From: Pseudobutyrivibrio ruminis CF1b
GTDB lineage: Bacteria; Bacillota; Clostridia; Lachnospirales; Lachnospiraceae
Assembly (NCBI RefSeq): GCF_000424005.1
Contig: NZ_AUJB01000008.1
Span: 558,001-622,000, forward strand
Length of the DNA stretch: 64,000 nt
Direction: 5' to 3'
A program made the position numbers and the translations under genes. The notes under the pieces are model-generated. The model searched no databases, was not told where the DNA came from, and worked only from the letters and a program-made list of their open reading frames with translations. Position 1 is the stretch's first letter. Each line of letters starts with the position of its first letter. Of the stretch, positions 1-13,674 are shown in pieces.

Positions 1-2
1 AA

Positions 3-77
3 ACGGACTGGACAATTATATGTAACTACAATTCTACGAATAATGTTGATGAATTTGTTCAGCTTATAGGAGATTAA
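3..77 (+). CDS. C-terminal end of an unidentified upstream gene (partial)
   Basis: Frame 3 is open from the window edge to TAA at 75-77 and encodes a plausible C-terminus ending VDEFVQLIGD. Its stop lies 3 nt before the ATG of the next gene, whose ribosome site (AGGAG, 69-72 area) is inside it, so it is probably the preceding gene of the same operon. Only about 24 codons are visible, too few to name a family. Confidence 0.5.
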   Translation, partial: TDWTIICNYNSTNNVDEFVQLIGD

Positions 78-80
78 AAA

Positions 81-1835
81 ATGGCAATAATGATTCCAGA
101 TCAAGCTCTTAACGTGCCAAAATATAGCAGAGAAGACGAGATGTTTTATGCACTGAAAGAGAAACTATCAAAAGAATATTATGTTTTTTATTCTTTCCAT
201 AAAGTAACTGTAGAAAACAAAAAGATAGAAGAGAGTGAAACTGATTTCGTTGTCTTTCATCCACAAAAAGGAATCCTATGTATAGAAGCAAAAAATGGTA
301 GAATAACTTGCGAGAATAGATACTGGAGATATTCTAGTGGTAAGCCTATTTGGAATGGTTTAGGACCATTTGAACAAGCCGATAAAGAAAAATGGGAGCT
401 TCATGGTTTATTTAAGGACAAAGGTCAGATGGCTATTTTGAATAATTGTAAATTTTTGCATGCAGTTTGGTTGCCGTCGTATTCTGAGAAAGATATCAAC
501 AATAAAGTTATTAATTATCCATCTGAAGTTGATGCTAGATTGACTATTCCTTCGGAAGCACTAGTAGACCCTACAAAATATATTGAGAGAATATACTCTT
601 ATGATGTTCAAAAGGATGGAATTGTAACGAATTTAAATCAGACTCAGATTGAGTATATTATGTATGATGTACTGGCACCCAAATTTAATGTTGTTCCTAC
701 GATGAAAAGTGATATTGATTTAAATAATGCTACATTTGACAGATTGTTAGATGAGCAGAAAAACATTCTCAATTATTTAGAGGAACAAAAAGATGCTGTC
801 ATTAATGGTGTCGCTGGAAGTGGAAAAACATGGATAGCAGTAGAAAAAGCAAGAAGATGTTCCGATGAAAATAATAAAACACTTTTTATATGTTTTAATC
901 GTTATTTAGTAGATTTTTTAAGAAAAAATAAAAAAATACAAAATGTTGATTACTATACTATCGACGGCTATGTTTATGAGTTGAATCAACAAGCAGAAGC
1001 TAGTGATTCTCTACCATCTATAAAAGAGTACAATAATGCAGTTAAATTAGTCTCGGATGCATATTTAGAGGGAAGATATCCGTATAAGAATATAATCATC
1101 GATGAGGGACAAGATTTTGGATTTGAACGAATTTATAAATCTAAAATAATAGAAACCTTGAAAACAATTATTCGTTCTGATGAGGTGGATGGTTGTTTTT
1201 ATGTGTTCTATGATAAATTGCAGTTCGTACAGGGAAAAAAACTACCAGAATATATAATTGATGCTGATTGTAGAATGACACTGTATAAAAATTGTAGAAA
1301 TACTGAAAATATAGCAAAGACATCATTGCGACCTTTTTCAGATATTAGAAAACCAAAACTAGGAGATATGGTTATTCAGGGTGATTCTACTGAGATGTAT
1401 TATGCTGATGGTTGTGAGGAATCGTATGATATTATTCAGAATTGTATCGAATCTTGCGAAAGAGAAAACATAAACGATATTGTCATATTAACGTGTGCAC
1501 CTAAAGTAGAAGATTCAATAATGTTCAAATTTGTCAAAGGCGATAAGCTATTAATTTCGAATAAGAAGTATACCTTTACCACATGTAAAAAGTATAAAGG
1601 CTTAGAAGCTGATGCGGTTATTTTGATTGATATTACATTTAGTATGATGAATTCAGACGATGTAAATCTATTTTATGTTGGATGTTCAAGAGCTAAAAAT
1701 CGACTTTTTATGCTTTCACCAATGTCAGATGAACAATTAAAGGAGATATATCGAGTATTTAAAAAGAAAAAAGCATCTAATAATGCTAAGAAATCATTTG
1801 CAACTTTCTTAAATGCAAAATATATTCAATTGTAA
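81..1835 (+). CDS. NERD nuclease-domain / superfamily I helicase fusion protein
   Basis: 584 aa. The N-terminal part (about residues 20-130) has a NERD-type nuclease signature, D55 followed by E69-A-K71 within CIEAKNG, a PD-(D/E)xK-like arrangement. The second half is a UvrD/Rep-like ATPase: Walker A GVAGSGKT near residue 243, Walker B IIIDEGQDF near 338, and a late SF1-like stretch ending VGCSRAKNRLF. NERD-helicases occur on mobile DNA and in defence islands and are thought to process DNA ends. AGGAG lies 8 nt before the ATG. It is followed within 22 nt by an HNH nuclease gene and then a restriction-modification operon, so a role in DNA defence is inferred. The exact substrate is unknown. 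Confidence 0.85.
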   Translation: MAIMIPDQALNVPKYSREDEMFYALKEKLSKEYYVFYSFHKVTVENKKIEESETDFVVFHPQKGILCIEAKNGRITCENRYWRYSSGKPIWNGLGPFEQADKEKWELHGLFKDKGQMAILNNCKFLHAVWLPSYSEKDINNKVINYPSEVDARLTIPSEALVDPTKYIERIYSYDVQKDGIVTNLNQTQIEYIMYDVLAPKFNVVPTMKSDIDLNNATFDRLLDEQKNILNYLEEQKDAVINGVAGSGKTWIAVEKARRCSDENNKTLFICFNRYLVDFLRKNKKIQNVDYYTIDGYVYELNQQAEASDSLPSIKEYNNAVKLVSDAYLEGRYPYKNIIIDEGQDFGFERIYKSKIIETLKTIIRSDEVDGCFYVFYDKLQFVQGKKLPEYIIDADCRMTLYKNCRNTENIAKTSLRPFSDIRKPKLGDMVIQGDSTEMYYADGCEESYDIIQNCIESCERENINDIVILTCAPKVEDSIMFKFVKGDKLLISNKKYTFTTCKKYKGLEADAVILIDITFSMMNSDDVNLFYVGCSRAKNRLFMLSPMSDEQLKEIYRVFKKKKASNNAKKSFATFLNAKYIQL

Positions 1836-1856
1836 GTTTTTTTATGGAGACCAGCT

Positions 1857-2642
1857 ATGAATGAACAGGGACGAAATAATTGGAGTAGAGAGGAGACCAT
1901 TTTAGCATTTGATTTATATTGTAGAACTCCTTTTTCTAAAATAGGAAAGAATAATGAATCAATCAAAGCTCTTGCTGCACTTATTGGGAGAACACCAAGT
2001 GCTGTTGGGTTGAAAATGGCAAATTTAGCACACTGGGATCCAGAGATTATTGCTGAAAATAAAAAGGGGATGGCGAACGGAAGTAAGCTTGATAAAAAAA
2101 TTGTCGAAGAATTTTGGAATAATTGGGAAGAATTATCATATGAAGCACAAATAATTAAAGCTACATACTATAAGAAAAATGTTTATGAGATACTTCCAGA
2201 TGATATTCAAGTAAACGAAATTCCAGAGGGAAAAGACCGAATTAAAGAGGTTAAAACACGAATAGGTCAAAACTTTTTTAGAAATGCAGTTTTAGAGGCA
2301 TATAATAATAAATGCTGTATAACAGGGCTGTCATATCCTAAAATGCTTATAGCAAGCCATATAAAACCATGGAGAGATAGTGACCCAAAAAAAGAGAGAG
2401 CAAATCCAAGCAATGGGTTATGTTTAAATCCTTTTCATGACAAAGCTTTTGATATAGGTTTAATTACAATTGATAAAAACTATAATGTTATTATTTCTTC
2501 GAAAATTTATAATGCTGAAATGTCGGATGAAACAAGAAATTGGTTTTTTTATTACGATAGGAAAAAAATATTATTACCAGATAAGTTTTTACCCAATAAG
2601 GAATATATAGAATATCATAATGATGTGATTTTTTTAAAATAA
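1857..2642 (+). CDS. HNH endonuclease, restriction-endonuclease type
   Basis: 261 aa. The C-terminal half carries an HNH fold: a CCITGL segment, then ASHIKPW (His at about residue 167), then NGLCLNPFHDKAFD, which supplies the Asn and last His. This is the pattern of HNH restriction-like enzymes. The N-terminal half begins WSREETILAFDLY and continues IGRTPSAVGLKMANL, a SANT/HTH-like module often found before this HNH domain. It starts 22 nt after the NERD-helicase gene. The cytosine methyltransferase follows after about 110 nt with its own promoter-like sequence. It could be a second nuclease using the same protection as the neighbouring R-M system, or a methylation-dependent nuclease; the sequence does not decide. 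Confidence 0.8.
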   Translation: MNEQGRNNWSREETILAFDLYCRTPFSKIGKNNESIKALAALIGRTPSAVGLKMANLAHWDPEIIAENKKGMANGSKLDKKIVEEFWNNWEELSYEAQIIKATYYKKNVYEILPDDIQVNEIPEGKDRIKEVKTRIGQNFFRNAVLEAYNNKCCITGLSYPKMLIASHIKPWRDSDPKKERANPSNGLCLNPFHDKAFDIGLITIDKNYNVIISSKIYNAEMSDETRNWFFYYDRKKILLPDKFLPNKEYIEYHNDVIFLK

Positions 2643-2648
2643 CTATCC

Positions 2649-2680
2649 TTGAGACATGTGTAATTATGATATTATATAAT
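2649..2680 (+). promoter_or_regulatory. Candidate promoter for the methyltransferase operon
   Basis: TTGAGA at 2649-2654 and TATAAT at 2675-2680 (or TATTAT at 2670-2675) lie just upstream of the structured leader. The spacing is 20 or 15 bp, so neither pair is ideal. Restriction-modification operons commonly start methyltransferase expression from a separate promoter, which fits. Confidence 0.4.
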
Positions 2681-2693
2681 AGAATAAATAAAA

Positions 2694-2751
2694 AAGTGCG
2701 GCGGCACTTATCCGCTGTGAGCGTGGGACCACGTAGAAACCGAGGTGAATA
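2694..2751 (+). promoter_or_regulatory. Structured 5' leader before the DNA methyltransferase
   Basis: Two compact GC-rich stem-loops sit between the promoter-like TATAAT and the methyltransferase ATG. The first is AAGTGC-GGCG-GCACTT (2694-2709), the second CGTG-GGAC-CACG (2722-2733). A GAGGTG ribosome site follows. The stretch stands out from the AT-rich surroundings. I do not recognise a known riboswitch class; autoregulation by the methyltransferase or the C protein is possible but only inferred. Confidence 0.45.
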
Positions 2752-3825
2752 ATGAAAGAATTGAAAAAAATGGAATTTAAGCTTGGCGAGCTTTATTGTG
2801 GGCCAGGCGGGTTAGCTTGTGGTGCGTTGAGATCTACAAGCGATGATGGTTTATTAAGTATTTCGCATGCATGGGCTAATGATTATGATTATGATACATG
2901 TGCGACATACACTAAAAATATTTGTCCAGATAATCCGGATAGCGTATATTGCGGTGATGTAAGAGACTTAAATATTGATGAATTAGGTGACATTGATGCT
3001 TTCGCATATGGCTTTCCTTGTAACTCTTTTTCAAATGTTGGGGAGCATCAGGGCCTAGCAAATGAAAAGTTTGGACAGTTATATTGGTATGGAATAGAAG
3101 TTTTAAATAAATATAAGCCAAAATGGTTTATGGCGGAAAATGTATCAGGTATTAGGTCTGCTGGAAGTAATGATTTTAATATCATATTAGATGATATGAA
3201 GGCTGCCGGTTACAAACTTACTACACATCTTTATAAAGCAGAAGATTATGGCGTACCTCAAACACGACATAGGGTTATTATTGTAGGTATAAGAGATGAT
3301 TTGGATGTTGAGTTTAAAGTTCCTAGCCCAGAACCATATAAAGATTGTGATATTTCAGCTAAAACCGCATTGAGTGGTATAACTGCGGATATGCCAAATA
3401 CAGAAAAAAGAAATTTGTCTGATACTGTAGTTGCAAGGTTATCTTACATTAAACCTGGACAAAATGTATGGCAAGCCGAGGCTTCAGGAGATTTGCCTGA
3501 CGAATTAAGAATTAGGACCAGAACAAAGATTTCACAAATATATAGAAAGTTAGATCCTGATAAGCCTAGTTATACTATAACAGCAGCTGGTGGTGGTGGA
3601 ACGTATGGATACCATTGGACTGATAGGGAACTTACGAATAGAGAACGAGCAAGAATACAGACATTTCCAGATGATTATGAGTTTGTTGGTAAATATTCGT
3701 CAGTGAGAAAGCAAATAGGTATGGCTGTTCCATGTAAATTAAGTGAGGTTGTTACAACAGCTATATTAAATTCCTTTGCAGGAATCGAGTATGAGAGTAT
3801 AGAGCCTAATTTAATGGAGAGTTAA
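2752..3825 (+). CDS. DNA (cytosine-5-)-methyltransferase of a type II R-M system
   Basis: 357 aa. It has the ordered C5-methyltransferase motifs: motif I CGPGG for SAM binding (about residue 18), motif IV GFPCNSFS with the catalytic Cys (about residue 90), motif VI ENV (about 129), motif VIII QTRHRVI, and motif X near the C-terminus (QIGMAVPCKLSEVV). Target recognition lies between VIII and the last motifs. The enzyme methylates C5 of a cytosine in the recognition site and so protects the host. It is followed after 1 nt by an NgoFVII-like endonuclease gene, so the two probably form the R-M pair. The recognition sequence cannot be read from the protein. Confidence 0.93.
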   Translation: MKELKKMEFKLGELYCGPGGLACGALRSTSDDGLLSISHAWANDYDYDTCATYTKNICPDNPDSVYCGDVRDLNIDELGDIDAFAYGFPCNSFSNVGEHQGLANEKFGQLYWYGIEVLNKYKPKWFMAENVSGIRSAGSNDFNIILDDMKAAGYKLTTHLYKAEDYGVPQTRHRVIIVGIRDDLDVEFKVPSPEPYKDCDISAKTALSGITADMPNTEKRNLSDTVVARLSYIKPGQNVWQAEASGDLPDELRIRTRTKISQIYRKLDPDKPSYTITAAGGGGTYGYHWTDRELTNRERARIQTFPDDYEFVGKYSSVRKQIGMAVPCKLSEVVTTAILNSFAGIEYESIEPNLMES

Positions 3826-3826
3826 A

Positions 3827-4897
3827 ATGATTCTATTAAATACACGAGATGTGCAACTTATAACAAAGGATTTTGATGAACCTATATTGTATGAACCAGC
3901 TCTTATTGAAAATGGTTGCAATGATTTAAAGATAATCTCAGGTTTTACAGATTGTGATAGAATATCAACCCATATGATTGGTCTTGCTGATCGGATGGAG
4001 ACTAATCAGTATATGAAAAATATTTCTGTTGATCTTATTGTAGGGATGACAAAAACGGGGATGACTTTAAAAAAACATAATGATATATGTAGGCTTGTTA
4101 AATATTTACAGGGTACTAGAAAAATGCCTAAGATAAATTGCTATTATATATCAAATGGTCCAGAGGTTCATTCAAAGGTTTATTTATGGTCTAAAAAAAC
4201 AGATGAAACATCATGGGGACTGTATCCTTGGATTGCATATAGTGGTTCTTTAAACTATACAAATAATGCATTTTATAAAAGGAGAGAGGTGGTTAGTCCA
4301 TGTGATCCATTAAGTGCGTTTATGTATTATCAAGATGTTTTTGAAGATACGATAAATTGTTTGGATCCGCAAGCTGTTGAAAGAGTGAAGAATGTTTCAA
4401 ACAAAAAAGCTGATGAATATGTTATTGAAGATGTTGAGGATAAAGATTATTCATATTACGATAAGTTAGAGCCAGTTGAAACGATAAGAGTATCTTTACT
4501 AAAAGCAAATGGTGAGGGAACTGGCTATGGAAGTGGCATTAATTGGGGGATTCGTAAGAATGGATATAAAAGAAATCAGAATCAAGCATATATTCCCTAT
4601 AATGTAGATGATAGAGTGCCGGGATTTTTCCCTGATAGAATTAATCCGGATGATAAAAATTGTCCTATTTTTAAAGTGATAACAAAGGATTTTGGTTCTT
4701 TCCATATGAGAATGGCTCAGCAGGGAAATAAAGCATTACATTCAGCTGAGAGTAATGCCATTCTTGGTGAGTGGATACGAAAAAGAATAAATTGTCCATC
4801 TGGAGGTTATATTACAAAGGAGATGTTGGATATTTATGGAAAAACCTATGTGACCTTTAGAAAATATGATGATGGTACATATTTATTAGATTTTTAA
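3827..4897 (+). CDS. NgoFVII-family type II restriction endonuclease (phospholipase D fold)
   Basis: 356 aa. Residues about 113-150 show the PLD-like nuclease signature: VHSKVYLW (H-x-K) followed by SGSLNYTNNAF (G-S-x-N). Such enzymes act as dimers with a single HKD motif each. The C-terminal part (INWGIRKNGYKRNQNQAYIP, later DFGSFHMRMAQ) matches the NgoFVII-type DNA-binding region as I know it. It starts 1 nt after the methyltransferase stop, so the two are translationally coupled. NgoFVII of Neisseria also partners a C5-methyltransferase, which supports the pairing. The cleavage site is not known. Confidence 0.82.
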   Translation: MILLNTRDVQLITKDFDEPILYEPALIENGCNDLKIISGFTDCDRISTHMIGLADRMETNQYMKNISVDLIVGMTKTGMTLKKHNDICRLVKYLQGTRKMPKINCYYISNGPEVHSKVYLWSKKTDETSWGLYPWIAYSGSLNYTNNAFYKRREVVSPCDPLSAFMYYQDVFEDTINCLDPQAVERVKNVSNKKADEYVIEDVEDKDYSYYDKLEPVETIRVSLLKANGEGTGYGSGINWGIRKNGYKRNQNQAYIPYNVDDRVPGFFPDRINPDDKNCPIFKVITKDFGSFHMRMAQQGNKALHSAESNAILGEWIRKRINCPSGGYITKEMLDIYGKTYVTFRKYDDGTYLLDF

Positions 4898-4938
4898 TAA
4901 CTATGATGTATGGGGGAATGTTGATTGGAGATTAATGT

Positions 4939-5154
4939 ATGTCAGATACTAATACGATTAATGTAAAGATTGGGGCAAATATCGCTCGACTAAGAAAGTC
5001 AATTGGTATTTCTCAAGAAGATTTTGCATTCGATATTGGTTATTCAAAAAATCATATTTCTCATATTGAACGAGGAAATAAAAACATTACACGTAAGGTT
5101 ATAGATGCTGTTGTTGAATATTTTGGTATAGACGAAGAAGAGTTATACAAATAA
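4939..5154 (+). CDS. XRE-family HTH regulator, C-protein-like
   Basis: 71 aa, a single helix-turn-helix domain: IGANIARLRKSIGISQEDFAFDIGYSKNHISHIERGNKNIT. This is the size and form of controller proteins that time restriction enzyme expression. It lies 41 nt after the NgoFVII-like gene and before another small HTH-like protein. Unlike classical C genes it is placed after, not before, the endonuclease. I found no clear GACT/AGTC C-box upstream, so the controller role is inferred from size and position. Confidence 0.75.
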   Translation: MSDTNTINVKIGANIARLRKSIGISQEDFAFDIGYSKNHISHIERGNKNITRKVIDAVVEYFGIDEEELYK

Positions 5155-5162
5155 TTAAAATC

Positions 5163-5351
5163 ATGAAGTTATATTTAAAAGTGACACCTGATAAATATGA
5201 ATTACCAGTTGCAGTGGCAGATAATCGGAAGATTTTAGCTGAAATGGTTGGAACTACGCCAGAATATGTTTCTAGCCAGATTTCAAAAAAAAGCAAGGGC
5301 TGGTGTGTTGTTAATATTACTGATGATGAAAACGCTATTGATACAGATTAA
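5163..5351 (+). CDS. Small HTH-like protein of the R-M operon
   Basis: 62 aa, 8 nt after the C-like regulator. It opens with a short beta strand (MKLYLKVTPDKYELP) and then has an HTH-like stretch, ILAEMVGTTPEYVSSQISKK. Similar small proteins are common in phage-like and R-M neighbourhoods of Firmicutes. The ribosome site is weak, which suggests coupling to the preceding gene. Function not established; DNA binding is a guess from the helical pattern. Confidence 0.6.
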   Translation: MKLYLKVTPDKYELPVAVADNRKILAEMVGTTPEYVSSQISKKSKGWCVVNITDDENAIDTD

Positions 5352-5374
5352 ATTTATTTATAAATTGAGGGTAA

Positions 5375-6061
5375 ATGATGCGTTGTCCTATAGATTATGT
5401 ATTAACACAACAAGAATTAGAACTTTGTATTAATTTTGCAAGAGATAGTGCGCCAACCCAGCAGGATTATGAATTTGGTGAAAGGTCTACTGGCGCAAGA
5501 ACTGCATTTGAAATATCAAGAGATAATTTAATAGGTAAGATAGCAGAGGTAGCTTTTAAAAACATAATTGAGGCTAACTATCCTTCTATTCCAGAAATAA
5601 ATCTTGATTTTGAAGTATATGAAAGAGGAAAATACGATGAACAAGATGCGTCTATAAATGGTTACAATATAGATGTCAAAGGAACTAGAGAGGGTGGTCG
5701 ATGGTTTTTGATTGAATGGAACAAGTTGCGTTTCAGATCTAGAGAAAACAAACTGCCACAATATTTTGCCGCATTTTCAGTTGGTTGGGATAGATTGAGA
5801 GATTATCCTTCAGGTAAAGCAACTTTCCAAGGATTGATACCAATTGCATGGTTAAGTTTTCCTCATGCAATAAAAGAAGCTCGTATTGAAATATTACGGA
5901 AGGATTCTTTTATTCCTAATACTGGAACACGTTTACAAACTGATAATTATGGAATTAGGTTTTGCCATCTAATTAGAAGTGACAAGGGAATTAATGCGTG
6001 TATAAATAATATGGTTAATGGCAAGGAAAAAGAAGTATTAGATTTTATATTGCCTGAGTAG
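5375..6061 (+). CDS. PD-(D/E)xK nuclease-like protein at the end of the R-M operon
   Basis: 228 aa. Two segments fit a restriction-enzyme-like core: GKIAEVAFKNII near residue 54 (acidic residue on the first helix) and NGYNIDVKGT near residue 97 (D-x-K). A Trp-rich region, RWFLIEWNKLRFRS, follows. No other domain is visible. It ends at a strong intrinsic terminator at 6062, so it is the last gene of the operon that starts with the methyltransferase. It may be a second nuclease or an accessory specificity factor. I cannot name a family; the nuclease call is from motif spacing only. Confidence 0.55.
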   Translation: MMRCPIDYVLTQQELELCINFARDSAPTQQDYEFGERSTGARTAFEISRDNLIGKIAEVAFKNIIEANYPSIPEINLDFEVYERGKYDEQDASINGYNIDVKGTREGGRWFLIEWNKLRFRSRENKLPQYFAAFSVGWDRLRDYPSGKATFQGLIPIAWLSFPHAIKEARIEILRKDSFIPNTGTRLQTDNYGIRFCHLIRSDKGINACINNMVNGKEKEVLDFILPE

Positions 6062-6473: not shown

Positions 6474-6587
6474 ATGTTTGGAATTAATTGGAATCTAAAT
6501 GGTAATGTGGAGATTATCGACGATCTTATTACGTTAGATTTACTCACCGAAGATGACGAAGAGGATAATGAGGATGAAAGTATATAG
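6474..6587 (+). CDS. Acidic microprotein
   Basis: 37 aa, starting 11 nt after the zinc-ribbon pair with AAGGAG 5 nt upstream. The second half is almost entirely Asp/Glu (TEDDEEDNEDES). Its stop lies inside the start region of the lipoprotein gene, so the two overlap by about 20 nt and are probably coupled. Function unknown. Its strong ribosome site and operon fit are the only support. Confidence 0.45.
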   Translation: MFGINWNLNGNVEIIDDLITLDLLTEDDEEDNEDESI

Positions 6588-7473
6588 AGTATCAATAGTA
6601 TTATTAACTGGGTACTTGCTCATTGGTTGTGGGCAGACTAAAGAAGCTTCAAATAGTGATGAAGCTGTGGTTACTCAAACATCGGATAATCTTGATATTG
6701 CTGAAGTAAAAGATGATGTTATTGATTATTCCATGGAAGCTATTAATTTAGATGATGCATATCTTCAGTATAAGGATATTTTGGTAAAATTTATGGAATC
6801 TGGAGTCTTACATATGGCTGATCGGGATATAGAAACTCCAGAAGCGGAAATGAATACTGTACTAAAATATTCAAGTTTTGCAGTGGCAGACATTGATAAT
6901 GACGATATTGATGAACTAATTGTATATTATGATGATGCTTGCATGGCTGGCATGATAGCTGTCATTTATGATTATATAGATGGTAAGGCTAGGTACAAAT
7001 TTATGGAATTCCCGAATCTTAGTATTTATGAGAATGGTACAATAGAGGCGGGATGGTCACATAATCAAGGATATGCGGGAGACTTCTGGCCATATAATTT
7101 ATATTACTATAATCCTGATACCAATGAATATGATGCAGTTGGCTCTGTTGATGCATACGACAAGGGGGTATATGAATGTAATAAAGAAGTACTTGATGCT
7201 AATGGAAGTCCCTTCCCTGCAGGAACTGATAAAGATGGAAATGGGTTTGTTTATTACATTTATGAGAATGGATTAGAAGATTATCAAAAGATTGAGCCGG
7301 TAGATGATGAAGAATATCAAAAATGGTTGAAACAATATACGGATGATACTAATAAGATATCGCTTGATTTCTATAGAATTACGAATGAAACGGTTGAGAG
7401 AATTGGTGATAAAGAATACTTTGAAAATATAAAGAATTCGAAATCAGATTTTTATGTGGCACCATATTATTAA
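6568..7473 (+). CDS. Secreted lipoprotein with a VCBS-like repeat segment
   Basis: About 301 aa from ATG 6568, which has GAAGAGG 4 nt upstream; ATG 6574 is the alternative. An N-terminal lipoprotein signal runs VYRVSIVLLTGYLLIGC, with the lipobox Cys at IGC. It is followed by a Ser/Asp-rich tether. In the middle, VADIDNDDIDELIVYYDD resembles a VCBS/FG-GAP calcium-binding element. The rest is rich in acidic and aromatic residues. It is probably anchored outside the membrane and carried as island cargo. I do not recognise a specific family. Confidence 0.7.
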   Translation: MRMKVYRVSIVLLTGYLLIGCGQTKEASNSDEAVVTQTSDNLDIAEVKDDVIDYSMEAINLDDAYLQYKDILVKFMESGVLHMADRDIETPEAEMNTVLKYSSFAVADIDNDDIDELIVYYDDACMAGMIAVIYDYIDGKARYKFMEFPNLSIYENGTIEAGWSHNQGYAGDFWPYNLYYYNPDTNEYDAVGSVDAYDKGVYECNKEVLDANGSPFPAGTDKDGNGFVYYIYENGLEDYQKIEPVDDEEYQKWLKQYTDDTNKISLDFYRITNETVERIGDKEYFENIKNSKSDFYVAPYY

Positions 7474-7494
7474 AATGAGCTGGGAGAGTTATGC

Positions 7495-7674
7495 ATGAAT
7501 AAAAAAGACCAAATGACAGTAGAAAACTTTGTAAGCACCGGTATGGAGCTGGAGACTCTTTATACTTGTTTTCCAGATTTTTCTAAGGATGAGATTGCCG
7601 CAATTTATAATAATTACAATGAAAATATACTCAATAATAATGAGGGACAGACAATAAGCATTAATTGTACTTAA
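7495..7674 (+). CDS. Small hypothetical protein
   Basis: 59 aa, 21 nt after the lipoprotein gene, with GGGAGAGTT before the ATG. The stretch VENFVSTGMELETLYTCFPDFSKDEIAAIYNNY looks like two short helices with an HTH-like spacing. No family recognised. Confidence 0.5.
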   Translation: MNKKDQMTVENFVSTGMELETLYTCFPDFSKDEIAAIYNNYNENILNNNEGQTISINCT

Positions 7675-7770
7675 GATATTTGAACAACCTCATGGTATGA
7701 GGCATATTTCCTCATGAGAGTTACTCCTACTCCTAAAATAAAATTGATAAAATTTTATCAGGAGCGGGTA

Positions 7771-8115
7771 ATGCTTATGAGAGAGAAAAAAACAATAATT
7801 CATGAAGTCGGATTACGGCTTGAGACTATACAAAATAATCTTGGTTACACACAAGAGCAAATGGCTGAAATGATGGATGTTTCTAAGGAACAATATAGGA
7901 AATATCTTAAAGGTATTTCTGAGATACCATCACATAAGTTAACGATATTATTAGAACAACAAGACTTTGATGTAAAGTATTTATTAACTGGTAAAAGTGC
8001 AGAGGAGGAGAAGACCTTCAGTGAGCATTTATCTACTATGTCAAAAGAAGGAAGGACACAATATATAAGAGACATCATTGATTACATGGAACAAAGAGTT
8101 ATTAAATTATTTTAA
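7771..8115 (+). CDS. XRE-family HTH regulator
   Basis: 114 aa from ATG 7771, chosen because GGAG lies 6 nt upstream; the open frame extends to 7714 without a ribosome site. HTH: LETIQNNLGYTQEQMAEMMDVSKEQYRKYLKGISEIPSHKL. The C-terminal part (SEHLSTMSKEGRTQYIRDIIDYMEQRV) is helical and may dimerise. It stands alone between terminators and probably regulates island genes, as Tn916-type elements carry a similar regulator before the sigma-like gene. Confidence 0.8.
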   Translation: MLMREKKTIIHEVGLRLETIQNNLGYTQEQMAEMMDVSKEQYRKYLKGISEIPSHKLTILLEQQDFDVKYLLTGKSAEEEKTFSEHLSTMSKEGRTQYIRDIIDYMEQRVIKLF

Positions 8116-8131
8116 TATGAATGGTAATACT

Positions 8132-8160
8132 AAGATCAAGGTTTCGGCCTTGGTCTTTTT
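8132..8160 (+). terminator. Intrinsic terminator after the XRE regulator
   Basis: AAGATCAAGG / CCTTGGTCTT with a short loop and TTTTT. Confidence 0.85.
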
Positions 8161-8203
8161 ATTATATTAGGGGAACTAGCAATTTTTTAGTTATGACGGA
8201 GGA

Positions 8204-8737
8204 ATGTTTGAAAAAATGAAAAGAATTTCGAAAGATGAAGAGGGTATTAATATCATCTGCGAAGGAATGGGATTTGATCCCAAGGTGGCTTATGAGCTTA
8301 CCAAAATGATGTTAGAACAGTATAGCCGTAGTGTTGTCGCTGGCAAAATTCTTTCTAGTATGACTAAGGCATCTGATCAGGAAAAGAATAAAAGGCAGAT
8401 GCGTAAGGACTTTTTGGAAATTATGAAGTTACCAATAGAAGAGTCAAAAGAAATGCAACGAAAGTTGCTTTGGCAAGTATCAGAATATGAATGGTTGGAA
8501 GCACCAAAGAATTATGTGTTAGAGGGAATGCAAGATTATGGTAATTCTGGCCCTATATATGTATCTATTATAAATAACAGATATATGACTAAGGACAAAA
8601 AGACAATGGTTGTGCTTGCTAATGAATTAGGATTTTCAGTTGCAAGTCTTGAAAATAAGAAAAGAGAAGCTATAAAGCTTTTTGGGATTATGATGTATCG
8701 ATATGCTGCCAAGCTTGAAGAGGAAGATACAGAATAG
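8204..8737 (+). CDS. ArpU/sigma-like hypothetical protein
   Basis: 177 aa. The C-terminal section (NNRYMTKDKKTMVVLANELGFSVASLENKKREAIKLFGIMMYRY) has the form of a sigma region 4 HTH as seen in phage ArpU/RinA-type late regulators. The N-terminal half is helical. GGAGG is only about 1 nt from ATG 8204 and about 12 nt from the in-frame ATG at 8216, so the start is uncertain. It is flanked by terminators on both sides. The likely role is transcription control of the element; the family call is tentative. Confidence 0.5.
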   Translation: MFEKMKRISKDEEGINIICEGMGFDPKVAYELTKMMLEQYSRSVVAGKILSSMTKASDQEKNKRQMRKDFLEIMKLPIEESKEMQRKLLWQVSEYEWLEAPKNYVLEGMQDYGNSGPIYVSIINNRYMTKDKKTMVVLANELGFSVASLENKKREAIKLFGIMMYRYAAKLEEEDTE

Positions 8738-8746
8738 TGTGGTATA

Positions 8747-8780
8747 TGCCTACGGTTTTATAAACCGTGGGCATTCTTTT
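8747..8780 (+). terminator. Intrinsic terminator
   Basis: TGCCTACGGTTT-ATA-AACCGTGGGCA followed by TTCTTTT, 10 nt after the ArpU-like gene. Confidence 0.8.
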
Positions 8781-8822
8781 ATTAGTTCGGTATGTAGATT
8801 TTCTAAATCTTTTAGATGTTGC

Positions 8823-8880
8823 TTACATGATTGTTATAGCATTGCTAGGGAATTGTTAGTACTCGTTTACATGATTGTTA
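8823..8880 (+). repeat. Two direct copies of TTACATGATTGTTA
   Basis: Perfect 14-bp copies at 8823-8836 and 8867-8880, 44 bp apart, in a gene-free stretch (8781-9011). They could be binding sites for the XRE regulator or integration proteins. No coding capacity seen here that I believe. Confidence 0.5.
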
Positions 8881-9011
8881 GATTACAGTTAGACAATGTT
8901 TGTAGTATTGTTATGGGTCACTACAATTTGATTATGATAATATACTTTATGCGCAAGGGTGTTAAATGCTATAGCAGAAGGGGAGCTTAGATAAAATTTG
9001 GAAAGGAGAAA

Positions 9012-9176
9012 ATGGTTATGATGTATCTACACGAAAAAATCTATTGCCCCTGCTGCGGTAAGGTTATTATTAGACGGCTAAAGGGTGTTATGGAAAACAA
9101 TTGTCCATATTGCAAAAAAGGGCTGAAGGTTATAGTCAACGAAAAGGGAATGACTATTTTTAGTGAATTATCTTAA
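9012..9176 (+). CDS. Zinc-ribbon microprotein 3
   Basis: 54 aa with AAAGGAG 5 nt before the ATG. CPCCGK and CPYCKK give two CxxC pairs, followed by a short beta-rich tail. It has the same general design as the two microproteins at 6185 and 6334 but a different sequence. Function unknown. Confidence 0.6.
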   Translation: MVMMYLHEKIYCPCCGKVIIRRLKGVMENNCPYCKKGLKVIVNEKGMTIFSELS

Positions 9177-9185
9177 GATATATAT

Positions 9186-9364
9186 TTAATTACATAGAAT
9201 GAGCTAACTGTGGTAGCGAAGAATTAGTCTTGGAGCGTCAGGTTCGCAGGCAGCTAGTAAGAGTTTGTGGCACGGCTATGAATATCATTGAGTATTGAAA
9301 GGCGGGGCAAAACAGAAGGAAGTATCTATTAGATAGATATTCTGTTTTGCTTCGTCTTTTTTTG
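9186..9364 (+). ncRNA. Candidate structured RNA ending in a long terminator hairpin
   Basis: The 320-bp gap 9177-9496 has no convincing gene. It is GC-richer than its surroundings up to about 9306 and then has a very strong terminator: GCAAAACAGAA (9307-9317) / TTCTGTTTTGC (9340-9350) with an inner TATCTAT/ATAGATA stem and a T run to 9364. A terminator with no gene before it suggests a transcribed RNA. No known family recognised. Confidence 0.4.
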
Positions 9365-9450
9365 TTGCTCTTTTTTAGCTTCCTTCTGGAGCTCTGAGAG
9401 TAATAGATATTGAATCAGTGGGAATGCTATATAGCTAAATATCCATGATT

Positions 9451-9488
9451 TCCGAGATTTGGAACTTACTAATTTTTCAAATTTCGGA
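9451..9488 (+). promoter_or_regulatory. Hairpin that hides the ribosome site of the sigma-like gene
   Basis: TCCGA-G-ATTTG (9451-9461) pairs with CAAAT-T-TCGGA (9478-9488). The right arm contains the first bases of CGGAGG, the ribosome site for ATG 9497. This could limit translation until a protein, RNA or temperature opens it. Confidence 0.5.
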
Positions 9489-9496
9489 GGTTAAAA

Positions 9497-10015
9497 ATGA
9501 ATATAAATAATGAAAACAAAGAGTACGAACTTATAAATCTTAAATTTGAATATCCAGGAATAAAAGGTGGAGTTACCTGGGCTGTCATATCAGATCTTTC
9601 TATGGAGGAGCTGATGGAGAAATATGGGGATGAGTTATTGAAGTATTCGCCAGTAATTCTACTTTCAGTAGAACAGGGAGAAGCCTTTAAGGACTTTCAT
9701 AGAAACGAGCATAAACATGATATGCGTGAAGCGAGAACTAAGCTTCCTATTAATTATAATGAAGAACTTCATGAATTTTTAGGTTTAATCACATCATCTA
9801 ATGTTACAGAGGATGATGCAATTAATAAATATGATTTGGAATTATTAAGGGAATCAATAGATTCACTAACTGCAGTTCAGCAGAGGAGAATCAAATTGTA
9901 TTTCTTTGAAGGTCTAACATTTAGAGAAATTGCAGCTAGAGAAGGTGTTAGTACGAAAAATGTTTATAAATCCGTTCAGGAAGCCATGAAAAAAATAAAA
10001 AAGTTTTGGGAATAG
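9497..10015 (+). CDS. RNA polymerase sigma-70 region 4-like protein of the mobile element
   Basis: 172 aa. The C-terminal 60 residues are a sigma region 4 HTH: LRESIDSLTAVQQRRIKLYFFEGLTFREIAAREGVSTKNVYKSVQEAMKKIKKF. Residues 1-100 are acidic and lack a clear sigma region 2. Tn916-type elements carry a similar gene between the HTH regulator and xis/int, and here it lies upstream of mazF, xis and int in the same order. It probably activates element genes. GGAGG is 8 nt before the ATG but is held in a hairpin. Confidence 0.78.
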   Translation: MNINNENKEYELINLKFEYPGIKGGVTWAVISDLSMEELMEKYGDELLKYSPVILLSVEQGEAFKDFHRNEHKHDMREARTKLPINYNEELHEFLGLITSSNVTEDDAINKYDLELLRESIDSLTAVQQRRIKLYFFEGLTFREIAAREGVSTKNVYKSVQEAMKKIKKFWE

Positions 10016-10016
10016 G

Positions 10017-10034
10017 GGTAACAAAACAGTTACC
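10017..10034 (+). other. Small inverted repeat after the sigma-like gene
   Basis: GGTAAC-N6-GTTACC directly after the stop at 10015. No T run follows on the plus strand, so it is more likely an operator or mRNA end than a terminator. Confidence 0.4.
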
Positions 10035-10084
10035 TCAGTGCAAGTAAGTGAAAGGCATTTTTGTCAGACATTTGAAAACTGAAT

Positions 10085-10395
10085 ATACATTCATCAGGTA
10101 CGTTCCTGCGTAGTGGAGCCCCAACAGGTACGCCATGTGCGATATAGCCTCACTGGAAAATTGGTAACACCAAACTGGCCATGATACATGCAGGTATAAT
10201 GATACTTCCGCTTAGCCACAATTATCGTAATGGGAGCGGCCCGGCGAGAACCGCGGGGAGGATAGAACCTATGGAGCTGTGTTGCAGCCGCCTGATAGAA
10301 TCCCGGATAGTATCGGGGTGCGTGGCAAATAGATACTTACATTTAATGATTTTTATGGGGCGTCTTCTTTATATCTATGTGAAGGCGCTCTTTTT
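10085..10395 (+). ncRNA. Candidate structured RNA upstream of mazF
   Basis: The 400-bp gap 10016-10419 has no believable gene. From about 10085 to 10340 it is much richer in G+C than its neighbours. It contains three degenerate repeats, a TTGGT-AAC-ACCAA hairpin (10161-10173) and a CCCGGAT/ATCGGGG hairpin near 10301-10318. It ends with a terminator-like stem, GGGCGTCTTC (10358-10367) / GAAGGCGCTC (10381-10390) then TTTTT. The mazF ribosome site follows directly. An RNA with its own terminator just before a toxin gene is suggestive, but the RNA itself is inferred. Confidence 0.45.
10095..10220 (+). repeat. Three degenerate repeats CAGGTA-N15-17-AGCC-N-CA
   Basis: Copies at 10095-10123, 10125-10152 and 10191-10220. 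The first two are in tandem 30 bp apart and share CAGGTACG. The third lies 66 bp after the second. They may be RNA units or protein-binding sites. Confidence 0.55.
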
Positions 10396-10419
10396 ACATA
10401 AGAAGAAAGGAGGAGTTCT

Positions 10420-10803
10420 ATGCTTGTAGTTCATCGTGGAGATATTTATTTAGCAGAATTAGGTGAAGGAGTAGGTTCTGAGCAAAGAGGCGAAAGACCA
10501 GTGCTTATTGTTCAAAATAATAAAGGTAATATCTTTTCGCCTACAGTTACAGTGCTTCCTATCACTACAAAGATTCATAAGAGTGAGGGAATGCCAACAC
10601 ATATACTTATTGATGATTTGAATGTGTTACCAGAAAAATCTGCAATCATGGCAGAGCAGATTACAACAATAGATAAGTCAAAGCTTATAAGAAAGCTTGG
10701 TATCCTTGACAAACGATTCATGAACAAGGTGGTAAATCCAAAGCTTTTGATTCAATTAGGTTTTTATGTGGAGGATAAGAATAAATGGAAAAGGCATTAT
10801 TAA
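10420..10803 (+). CDS. mazF: MazF/PemK-type endoribonuclease toxin
   Basis: 127 aa. It has the MazF fold signature: VVHRGDIYLAELGEGVGSEQ, then GERPVLIVQNN, then SPTVTVLPITTK and a late KSAIMAEQITTIDKSKL. MazF cuts mRNA at short sequences. AAAGGAGGAG lies 8 nt before the ATG. No MazE-like antitoxin gene is found upstream; instead there is a 400-bp gene-free stretch with repeats and a terminator. Its last 19 nt overlap the start of xis, so toxin and excision genes are co-transcribed. It probably stabilises the element. An antitoxin could also be encoded elsewhere. Confidence 0.9.
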   Translation: MLVVHRGDIYLAELGEGVGSEQRGERPVLIVQNNKGNIFSPTVTVLPITTKIHKSEGMPTHILIDDLNVLPEKSAIMAEQITTIDKSKLIRKLGILDKRFMNKVVNPKLLIQLGFYVEDKNKWKRHY

Positions 10804-10964
10804 CAGTAGAAGAATTTTGCTCATACCTTGGAATTGGGGAAACCAAAGCAAGGGAGTTGATAAGGCAACCAAGAAATGGTTTTAGCTTAAAAATTGGTAA
10901 TAAGTGGTTTGTAAATAAAGCTAGATTAGATCAGTGGTTAGCTGATGAATGCGATAAGTATTAA
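10785..10964 (+). CDS. xis: Excisionase-type small HTH protein (Xis)
   Basis: 59 aa. It has a winged-HTH of the MerR-like excisionase type: LTVEEFCSYLGIGETKARELI, then FSLKIGNKWFVNKARLDQWL. Such proteins bend DNA at element ends and direct integrase toward excision. It overlaps the end of mazF by 19 nt and precedes the integrase gene by 96 nt, the order found in Tn916-like modules. Confidence 0.85.
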   Translation: MEKALLTVEEFCSYLGIGETKARELIRQPRNGFSLKIGNKWFVNKARLDQWLADECDKY

Positions 10965-11060
10965 ATTGATATCCTAGACGTATATGTATTAAAGGATTTT
11001 AATTAAGACATAACAAGCGCTAGTTATTAAATTAAGATCAAATGAAGGCAGGTAGAATAA

Positions 11061-12311
11061 ATGGGAAAAAGTCTAAACGGAAGAGAACTTGGAAAAGGTA
11101 TTACTCAGCGTAAGGATGGTAGATATGTTGCAAGATTTATTGATCGGTATGGAAATAGAAAAAATGTATATGCTTCAAGTGTTAATGATATCCGCTTGAA
11201 GTTAAAAGCAGCCCAGTACGATGAGGAAACAAAAGAAGTTAAAGAATCAACAATTACATTAACACAATGGTATAATACTTGGCTTGATGTATATAAGAAA
11301 AACGCAATTAGGGTGGGAACAAGAACACATTATATGATGATTTATACAAAGCATATCGAGCCATTTCTTGGAGATATGTTGCTGACAGATATAAAGCCAA
11401 CTAGTGTAAGAAAATTGTTAAATAATTTGGAAGATAACGGGTTGGGATATTCAACACAGAGTAGGGTTAAAATTATGTTGGTGGATATGTTTGATAAAGC
11501 AATAATGGATGGCTTACTTGTTAGAAATCCTGCAAAAAATATAAAACTTAAAAAGAACGACTTTAATCGTAGAGTATTATCAAAGGAGGAGCAGATAACA
11601 TTTTTTGAATGTTCAAAGGGTACATATTTCGATAATCTATTTGTCGTAGCTGTTACTACAGGTATGAGAATAGGTGAGATTTGTGCTTTAACTTGGGAAG
11701 ATATTAATCTAACCACTAAGAAGATTACAGTAAATAAAACTCTCACTTATCAGAAATATGAAGGTGAAGAATCGAAAACATTTCACATTGGACCACCTAA
11801 GACTAAAACAAGCAATAGAGAGATCCCTATCAGTCCTAAATGTGAAATTGCTTTGAAAAAACAATTCGTCCTCAGAAATAACATAATGTCTCGTCACGGA
11901 GCAAAACCTATAGATGGGTTAGATAATCTTTTATTTGTATCCAGATACGGAAGACCTCTTTGTGATCAAACTATAATAGATGCTATTGATAGGATTGTAA
12001 ATGAAATTAATAGTTGTAGGGACGAGGCAGAGTTGTTTGACAGAATATCTCCACATTGCTTTAGACATACATTTGCTACAAGATGTTTTGAAGCTGGAAT
12101 ACCACCAAAGACTGTTCAGGTACTTTTAGGACATGCGACTTTGGATATGACTATGAATTTGTATACGCATGTAATGGATGATAAAAAGGATGAAGCAGTA
12201 ATTGCATTAAATGATTATTACTTTGATATGGAACAGCAGAGTTCGGCATTTATGGAAGATGATTTTAAGAATGCCATAGTAGATAGCAAAAAGGTTATTT
12301 CATTTGTTTGA
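11061..12311 (+). CDS. int: Tyrosine recombinase / integrase of the mobile element
   Basis: 416 aa. The N-terminal arm-binding domain includes ITQRKDGRYVARFIDRYGNRKNVYA. A SAM-like core-binding domain follows (about 65-165). The catalytic domain has the first Arg in TTGMRIGEICALTW, His-x-x-Arg in SPHCFRHTFATR, the next His in LGHATLDMT and the nucleophile Tyr in MNLYTHV. This is the Tn916/phage type. It integrates and excises the island through its attachment sites. Its end marks the right side of the island; an 11-bp tandem repeat 58 nt downstream may be part of the attachment region. Confidence 0.95.
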   Translation: MGKSLNGRELGKGITQRKDGRYVARFIDRYGNRKNVYASSVNDIRLKLKAAQYDEETKEVKESTITLTQWYNTWLDVYKKNAIRVGTRTHYMMIYTKHIEPFLGDMLLTDIKPTSVRKLLNNLEDNGLGYSTQSRVKIMLVDMFDKAIMDGLLVRNPAKNIKLKKNDFNRRVLSKEEQITFFECSKGTYFDNLFVVAVTTGMRIGEICALTWEDINLTTKKITVNKTLTYQKYEGEESKTFHIGPPKTKTSNREIPISPKCEIALKKQFVLRNNIMSRHGAKPIDGLDNLLFVSRYGRPLCDQTIIDAIDRIVNEINSCRDEAELFDRISPHCFRHTFATRCFEAGIPPKTVQVLLGHATLDMTMNLYTHVMDDKKDEAVIALNDYYFDMEQQSSAFMEDDFKNAIVDSKKVISFV

Positions 12312-12390: not shown

Positions 12391-12534
12391 AGAACAAAAT
12401 GAGAAGGCTGAAAACGTTGAATTATCAAGGCTTATAAAATTTCTTGGTGTTCTTATTACGTATATCAGAATACACCTTATGAGTGGAATAAGATTAGTGA
12501 TAAGCTACCGGATGATTTTTAATGGATTGATATG

Positions 12535-12845: not shown

Positions 12846-13287
12846 GTAAATTCAACAGAAGTTACTATTACTTGAAGGAAGAACTGGTAGAGTTTTGCAA
12901 AAACAATGGACTTCCTGCTTCTGGGGGAAAGGTAGAACTTACTGAGAGAATAGCGTACTTCCTAGATACTGGAAAGGTAAAGGAAGTATCCAAAACTAAG
13001 AGAGCTATCGTTGAAGTTGGCACTCTCTCTGAAGATACAATCATAGAAAACAATATAGTCTGTTCAGAGAAACATAGAGCTTTTTTCAAAGAAAAGACTG
13101 GTAAATCATTTTCATTTAATGTGCAGTTTCAGAAATGGTTAACTTCGAAGATAATCAGGGCAGAAGTTTGGATGATGCTATTAAATGTTGGAAATACAAA
13201 AAGAGCATGCAAGGGCATAATAAGTATGAAAAGTCGGACTTAGCAGCTCTCACTAATGCAAATACCTGGCATTATACTCACGGTTAA
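12845..13287 (+). pseudogene. Broken SAP-domain protein gene (5' truncated and frameshifted)
   Basis: The open frame after the stop at 12842 reads KFNRSYYYLKEELVEFC, then NNGLPASGGKVELTERIAYFL, a SAP DNA-binding motif. A helical part follows, ending FNVQFQKW at 13138. In that frame the sequence then degrades, but the +2 frame continues sensibly from about 13141 (NFEDNQGRSLDDAI, then CWKYKK) to TAA at 13285-13287. A 1-nt deletion near 13139 explains this. No ATG start remains; the 5' end meets the hairpin element. SAP proteins of this small family normally begin before the SYYYLKEELV segment. Confidence 0.7.
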
Positions 13288-13459
13288 TTTCGGCAATTTC
13301 CTTTTTGCCATCGATATAATCCTGGTACATATCCCAAGGGGAGCCGCCACCGAGCCAGCAGGAAGAGCAGTTCTCACAGCCGCCGCCACAGTCCAGAGAG
13401 CTGCGGATGATTTGCTCGCGTTCTTCTTTTGTGGTGTCCTTAATAAGAATTGATTTCAT
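13253..13459 (-). CDS. Small cysteine-rich protein A
   Basis: 68 aa, read on the minus strand with AGGAGG about 8 nt before the ATG. The core GGGCENCSSCWLGG is glycine- and cysteine-rich (CxxCxxC). The C-terminal DMYQDYIDGKKEI resembles that of the neighbouring gene at 13471, so the two are tandem paralogues. It may bind a metal. Its 3' end overlaps the remnant SAP gene on the other strand. Function unknown. Confidence 0.65.
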   Translation of the reverse strand: MKSILIKDTTKEEREQIIRSSLDCGGGCENCSSCWLGGGSPWDMYQDYIDGKKEIAEINREYNARYLH

Positions 13460-13470
13460 AGGGGTACCTC

Positions 13471-13674
13471 CTATCGATAATCCATAGAAACATCCATATA
13501 TTCGCGCTTGCCACTGATATAATCATCAAAAGCAAGCTCTGGATCTTTGCCATGAAACACCTGGCATAATCCACAGTTATCACAGTCTGCAATACATTTA
13601 TAGATTGAATTAATGTATTTGCGTCTTTCTATTTCTGTAGAGTCACTGATATTTGGTGCGCTCATATTTCTCAT
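13471..13674 (-). CDS. Small cysteine-rich protein B
   Basis: 67 aa, 11 nt upstream of protein A on the same strand and probably in one operon with it. IADCDNCGLCQVFHG has CxxCxxC, and ELAFDDYISGKREYMDVSMDYR matches the tail of protein A. ATG 13674 or the in-frame ATG at 13665 could be the start; AGGATGG precedes both. Metal binding is plausible; no family name known to me. Confidence 0.65.
   Translation of the reverse strand: MRNMSAPNISDSTEIERRKYINSIYKCIADCDNCGLCQVFHGKDPELAFDDYISGKREYMDVSMDYR

Follow-up and report, generated by a model that had tools for sequence, protein, structure and literature searches.

Seven open reading frames (ORFs) lie on one strand at the start of a 64,000-nucleotide stretch of the Pseudobutyrivibrio ruminis CF1b genome (the window; G000:C1:558001-622000 in a genome of 3.27 Mb), and this block is probably formed by the end of a DISARM variant followed head to tail by a type II restriction-modification (R-M) system, with one methylase shared between them. 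The block is clipped by the window edge, and its upstream continuation, the approximately 9 kb on the 5' side, consists of the genes for DrmE, DrmA and DrmB. The first system would be a class-2-like DISARM (DrmE, DrmA, DrmB) in which a fusion of a NERD nuclease and a UvrD helicase (the NERD-helicase) replaces the phospholipase D (PLD) nuclease DrmC; the second would be of the CglI/NgoAVII kind, with a C5 methyltransferase, a PLD-B3 nuclease, a regulator resembling R-M control (C) proteins and two accessory proteins. A first-pass annotation had suggested that the block might be two merged systems, and while the merger was borne out, the second partner, a DISARM core outside the window, had not been identified. 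All seven genes are present at the coordinates given there, and profile searches upheld the domain calls (NERD and UvrD helicase, HNH_2, DNA_methylase of the C5 type, RE_NgoFVII PLD with B3, and HTH_3), the 62-residue protein having a sub-threshold match to a helix-turn-helix (HTH). The genes do run in one direction and with tight spacing, save for a 109-bp gap (2643-2751) 5' of the methyltransferase.

The DISARM core and the NERD-helicase

The genes follow one another on one strand in the order drmE-drmA-drmB-NERD-helicase, the helicase DrmA and the DUF1998 protein DrmB being encoded by separate adjacent genes. DrmE was called with the Pfam model DrmE_C (35 bits, cut-off 27), a PADLOC search having given no match for it, and is 39% identical to the DrmE of a locus in an uncultured Lachnospiraceae (L015). 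The last base of drmB is window base 77, and a gap of 3 bp separates it from the NERD-helicase; the first gene of the block is therefore taken to be the last gene of the clipped DISARM cluster. No drmC adjoins drmB, and the PLD gene at 3827 was rejected as DrmC since it encodes an NgoFVII-type R protein. No match to a TPR-CSD or TBP gene was seen among the gene products scanned, a subset of the ORFs. With DrmC being dispensable and frequently missing (PMC9142583), the nuclease of DISARM is a puzzle, and a NERD nuclease-helicase recurring beside DrmAB where DrmC is absent would be a concrete candidate for that role.

Relatives of the NERD-helicase were found at 60 loci in a scan of bacterial genomes, and the PD-(D/E)xK residues D55, E69 and K71 and the Walker A residue K249 are invariant in 37/37 relatives. 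Those with recognised neighbours lie 3' of DrmA-DrmB in L015, L032, L052, L054 and L055, as well as in L013, which came from a separate scan, and 3' of unsplit DruE-like YprA helicases in L010 and many of L016-L044. The pairing with DrmA/DrmB is found in Bacillota, Fibrobacter, Deinococcus and alphaproteobacteria, and occurs on plasmids of Deinococcus, Rhizobium and Azospirillum; several plasmid DISARM loci have no NERD-helicase. As loci gathered by way of the helicase are a biased set, DrmE and DrmA were also sampled without selection. Besides the window, all four DrmE loci with readable flanks among 299 Bacillota genomes have a NERD-helicase adjoining DrmE. The DrmA sample, of 398 Bacillota genomes, gave about 17 loci, and the NERD-helicase is present in 5/6 of those with DrmE against 1/11 of those without (Fisher p 0.005; p 0.02 once doubtful loci and a near-copy are dropped), one NERD-positive locus (G543) being divided by contig ends. 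Four loci of this sample have DrmC or a PLD gene equivalent to it, and NERD is present in none of these four.

In a tree of NERD proteins that of the window clusters with those of two DISARM loci (L015 and L032) plus DruE-linked ones. The first-pass annotation had suggested that the helicase could act on DNA cut or nicked by the restriction enzyme, and its linkage with the R-M pair was examined. Its homologues instead track DrmA/DrmB and other YprA-type helicases and are not linked to this R-M family, and a role as an R-M component was rejected. A description of a NERD form of DISARM was not found in the literature searched, which did not cover Ofir 2018; within that literature DISARM and NERD are named together only in the TALON report and in a listing of NERD for other systems.

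A further arrangement was seen in another genome of the genus (G118), where L013 (533-15477) comprises an AIPR protein, a helicase, a divergent DrmA-DrmB, a NERD-helicase and a 1375-residue protein with a weak match to the RNA polymerase alpha C-terminal domain. A similar protein of 1300-1400 residues lies 5' of a DruE-like helicase and NERD in L010, L021, L024 and others, and these three genes are possibly an undescribed YprA-type system.

The methyltransferase slot and its leader

In L015 the genes run drmE-drmA-drmB-NERD-methyltransferase, and the methyltransferase is 74% identical to that of the window, as compared with 52% for that of L079. It is followed by an ORF for a FokI cleavage domain with a disrupted start (12924-13589), the apparent frame disruption reflecting either real decay or an assembly error. 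In a Fibrobacter metagenome-assembled genome (L032) the same drmE-drmA-drmB-NERD core is followed by another C5 methyltransferase and, further 3', by a GHKL ATPase, an unassigned ORF, a McrB-like protein and a LlaJI-type protein, and in G773 the order is drmE-drmA-drmB-methyltransferase-Vsr and then an AspBHI/Mrr-type gene. The slot behind the DISARM core is therefore repeatedly occupied by a methyltransferase, while the restriction gene accompanying it varies, which suggests that DISARM borrows whole R-M systems as a self-marker.

Between the NERD gene (or that of the HNH protein) and the methyltransferase lies a leader, whose hairpin in the window, GTGCGGCGGCAC, has two overlapping GCSGC sites (2698-2705). 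The window and L015 leaders share ATCCGCTGTGA-R-CGTGGGACCACGTA-N-AAACC, a short stem changing between them from GTGC/GCAC to CTGC/GCAG. A GCGGC is present 47-56 bases before the methyltransferase start in the window, L015, L079 and L094, a fraction of 0.02-0.17 of equally long stretches holding one; the Lactobacillus johnsonii methyltransferase has no such leader site. M.CglI and M.NgoAVII are known to act at GCSGC (PMC4267653), and we infer that the leader sites would fit self-regulation by a GCSGC-specific methyltransferase. An Rfam search of the leader gave no family, and the pattern turned up neither in viral contigs nor in 391 further genomes from the order. Since no further copies were found, the reading of the longer element as an RNA or an operator rests on two sequences. 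The element could serve as a model of methylation-sensed autoregulation. Neither the leader nor the R-M accessory genes were found described in the literature searched.

The restriction-modification module and alternative readings

The R protein, which adjoins the C5 methyltransferase, has PLD and B3 Pfam domains that both score above cut-off and the motif H115xK117. Direct searches of viral contigs and plasmids gave no relatives of it. In a genome of the same genus (L094) a methyltransferase, a 61-residue protein, a 254-residue relative of the 228-residue protein, an HTH regulator, an NgoFVII-type R protein and a Z1 ATPase lie on one strand, bringing together all five gene types of the window module. 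Because its methyltransferase is only 25% identical to that of the window, L094 shares the gene set and is not the same copy.

In CglI and NgoAVII the R protein binds DNA yet depends for cleavage on a DEAD-Z1 ATPase, the N/H protein (PMC4267653), and no Z1 match was found in the whole genome, the control, C. glutamicum, host of CglI, having given one. The R protein may work alone like BfiI, through another ATPase or through a DISARM helicase, or may be inactive. It could be envisaged that, having lost its DEAD-Z1 ATPase, it is driven by DrmAB or the NERD-helicase to unmethylated GCSGC, replacing the DrmC that DISARM has lost, with a single methylase shielding the host from both. The Z1 gene adjoining R in the related operon L094 and the absence of DrmC, likewise a PLD protein, would agree with the missing Z1 protein in favour of such a chimera. 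We nevertheless consider it improbable, as BfiI, which has the same fold, needs no ATPase to cut, the R relatives in L079 and on an L. johnsonii plasmid also have no recognised Z1 partner nearby, and another kind of ATPase could serve; nor is R conserved beside DISARM, L015 having the FokI-domain gene at that place.

The 62-residue protein is 62% identical to the 61-residue protein of the L094 operon, and its gene is likewise linked to R-M. For the 228-residue protein no family could be recognised in the first-pass annotation, and none was found in Pfam, NCBIfam, PADLOC or PDB, a PDB profile search with the whole family also giving no match. E58, D88, D91, K102 and E114 are invariant in this family and could plausibly form a PD-(D/E)xK site, the residue two before the conserved lysine being variable, and the protein is a likely nuclease; a single-sequence structure prediction (pLDDT 35) was not usable. 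Its expected linkage with R-M was found, the family lying beside or near C5 methyltransferases in 6/6 loci including the window. The relatives accompany an NgoFVII-type R and Z1 in L094, a Bsp6I-type R in L095 and L135, and Vsr, an NgoFVII_C R and HTH in L136, and a remnant lies with Vsr and an NgoFVII_C R in L078. The two small proteins are little-known R-M companions, the larger one with both NgoFVII- and Bsp6I-type systems.

The linkage expected between the HNH gene and the R-M pair was not found. The gene is tied to neither system and, being absent from both the closest sister locus, L015, and L032, is by its distribution optional. This absence also bears on whether the block, with its single direction and tight spacing, might be one integrated defence system of seven or ten mutually dependent genes. 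That is very unlikely, and a single seven-gene system was rejected, because the components separate in other genomes, NERD-DrmAB being found without this R-M and the R-M without DISARM. The closest relative of the HNH gene in the plasmid collection (43%; L137, 5950-7741, in a chromosome-sized Neisseria gonorrhoeae record) adjoins a Vsr gene and a methyltransferase fragment.

Several observations weigh against a DISARM variant and an R-M system that share a methylase. The exclusion between NERD and DrmC is not by itself significant (p 0.24), and both the DrmE locus G773 and a DrmE-like locus on an L. plantarum plasmid have no NERD-helicase. The NERD tree requires at least three partner changes between DISARM and other YprA systems. 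With several such switches NERD is no strict DISARM component, and the NERD-helicase is, on the evidence of its neighbourhoods, an exchangeable partner of YprA-type systems, and a common one in DrmE-type DISARM. R proteins of the kind seen here require an ATPase that was not found in the genome, and the one in the window could be inactive. Finally, between the DISARM genes and the methyltransferase lies promoter-like and leader sequence, and the two halves may therefore be independent neighbours. DISARM, the HNH enzyme and the type II R-M system would then simply lie side by side on a mobile element, each with its own control, as is also suggested by the R-M module being found without DISARM in view at L094, L079 and L136 and by the replacement of the cargo region of the element in G118. 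Though it deserves more weight than a chimera, this explanation is the less likely one, since in L015 the DISARM core is again directly followed by this methyltransferase and its leader, and in L032 a C5 methyltransferase likewise comes after the core.

It would seem probable, then, that the two systems share their methylase. The methyltransferase would mark host DNA, with GCSGC the most likely site, and set its own level through the GCGGC sites in its leader. DrmAB, the ATPase activity of which is lowered by methylated DNA (PMC9142583), would load onto unmarked DNA bearing 5' overhangs, and this DNA would be processed or degraded by the NERD-helicase. The PLD-B3 nuclease would cleave unmethylated sites, possibly aided by the 228-residue protein.

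The carrying element and comparison with known systems

A 53.5-kb integrative conjugative element, inserted in what we take, from its sequence and not from a database match, to be metA, carries the block as cargo. The element encodes ParB, a type IV coupling protein, a TraG/VirB4-like ATPase, a MobA-type relaxase, ArdC and a Tn916-type integrase, its backbone comprising window 6553-12311 and G000:C1:516948-534120. The left repeat, attL (G000:C1:516948-516992), lies in the 3' end of metA and differs from the 45-bp attR at two positions. In G118 the same backbone (about 66-81% nucleotide identity) holds another defence cargo at the corresponding place, again a DrmA-DrmB-NERD system.

Other genes were also seen on the element. 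Upstream of DISARM, in the same cargo region, a HerA-like ATPase (1025 residues) is followed by a colicin-DNase/WHH-domain protein (L002, 3964-7907). A lipoprotein-like gene of 306 residues (window 6553-7473), element cargo, is present in G000 and G118, and a search of 12 further genomes from the genus gave no full match. An Rfam pemK leader RNA lies upstream of a PemK/MazF-type toxin gene (window 10196-10803), with a Tn916-type xis just after.

Table 1. Features of the defence block, its upstream continuation and the right end of the element (window positions unless given as G000:C1).
Feature	Position	Strand	Remarks
drmE	G000:C1:549172-552102	same strand as block	Pfam DrmE_C
drmA	G000:C1:552119-555784	same strand as block	PADLOC 697 bits
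drmB (DUF1998/MZB protein)	G000:C1:555732-558077	+	3' end = window 1..77; PADLOC 248 bits
NERD nuclease - UvrD-type superfamily 1 helicase, 584 aa	81..1835	+	
HNH_2 endonuclease, 261 aa	1857..2642	+	
Methyltransferase leader	2643..2751	+	promoter-like TATAAT, hairpin GTGCGGCGGCAC, then conserved ATCCGCTGTGAGCGTGGGACCACGTAGAAACC
C5-cytosine DNA methyltransferase, 357 aa	2752..3825	+	predicted site GCSGC
CglI/NgoAVII-type R protein, 356 aa	3827..4897	+	NgoFVII PLD nuclease domain + B3-like DNA-binding domain
Cro/C1-type regulator	4939..5154	+	matches R-M control (C) protein models
62-aa HTH-like protein	5163..5351	+	sub-threshold HTH match
228-aa protein, unnamed family	5375..6061	+	
Tn916-type tyrosine integrase of carrying element	11061..12311	+	
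attR, 45-bp direct repeat	12453..12497	no strand	right end of 53.5-kb element

As in class 2 DISARM (drmE, drmA, drmB, drmC, drmMII), the DrmE_C, DrmA and DrmB models are matched in operon order and a C5 methyltransferase is linked to them. In contrast to that class, there is no DrmC here and a NERD-UvrD helicase instead, while the methyltransferase scores much higher with type II models than with DrmMII (335 vs 128 bits) and is accompanied by its own R gene. The second half resembles the ATP-dependent type II R-M systems CglI and NgoAVII (M, R, N) in having a C5 methyltransferase next to a PLD and B3-like R protein, and the GCSGC leader sites would, as an indirect indication, fit their known specificity, although no DEAD-Z1 N/H protein was found in the genome and the window adds the 62- and 228-residue genes and the C-like regulator. 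With Mokosh type I and Nhi-like systems the window has in common a NERD domain in a defence gene, and with the reverse transcriptase-associated NERD-Hel the same architecture of NERD and helicase (PADLOC RTasNERD-Hel, 186 bits). Unlike other NERD-helicase defence proteins, however, that of the window is tied to DrmA/DrmB and is neither alone nor with a reverse transcriptase. Among YprA systems, TALON likewise brings a NERD nuclease together with a YprA helicase, which is fused there to an inactive RNase H domain and accompanied by TPR-CSD and TBP genes, and, as regards the Druantia type, NERD-helicase relatives also sit behind DruE-like helicases, whereas the partner in the window is a split, DISARM-type DrmA/DrmB with DrmE.

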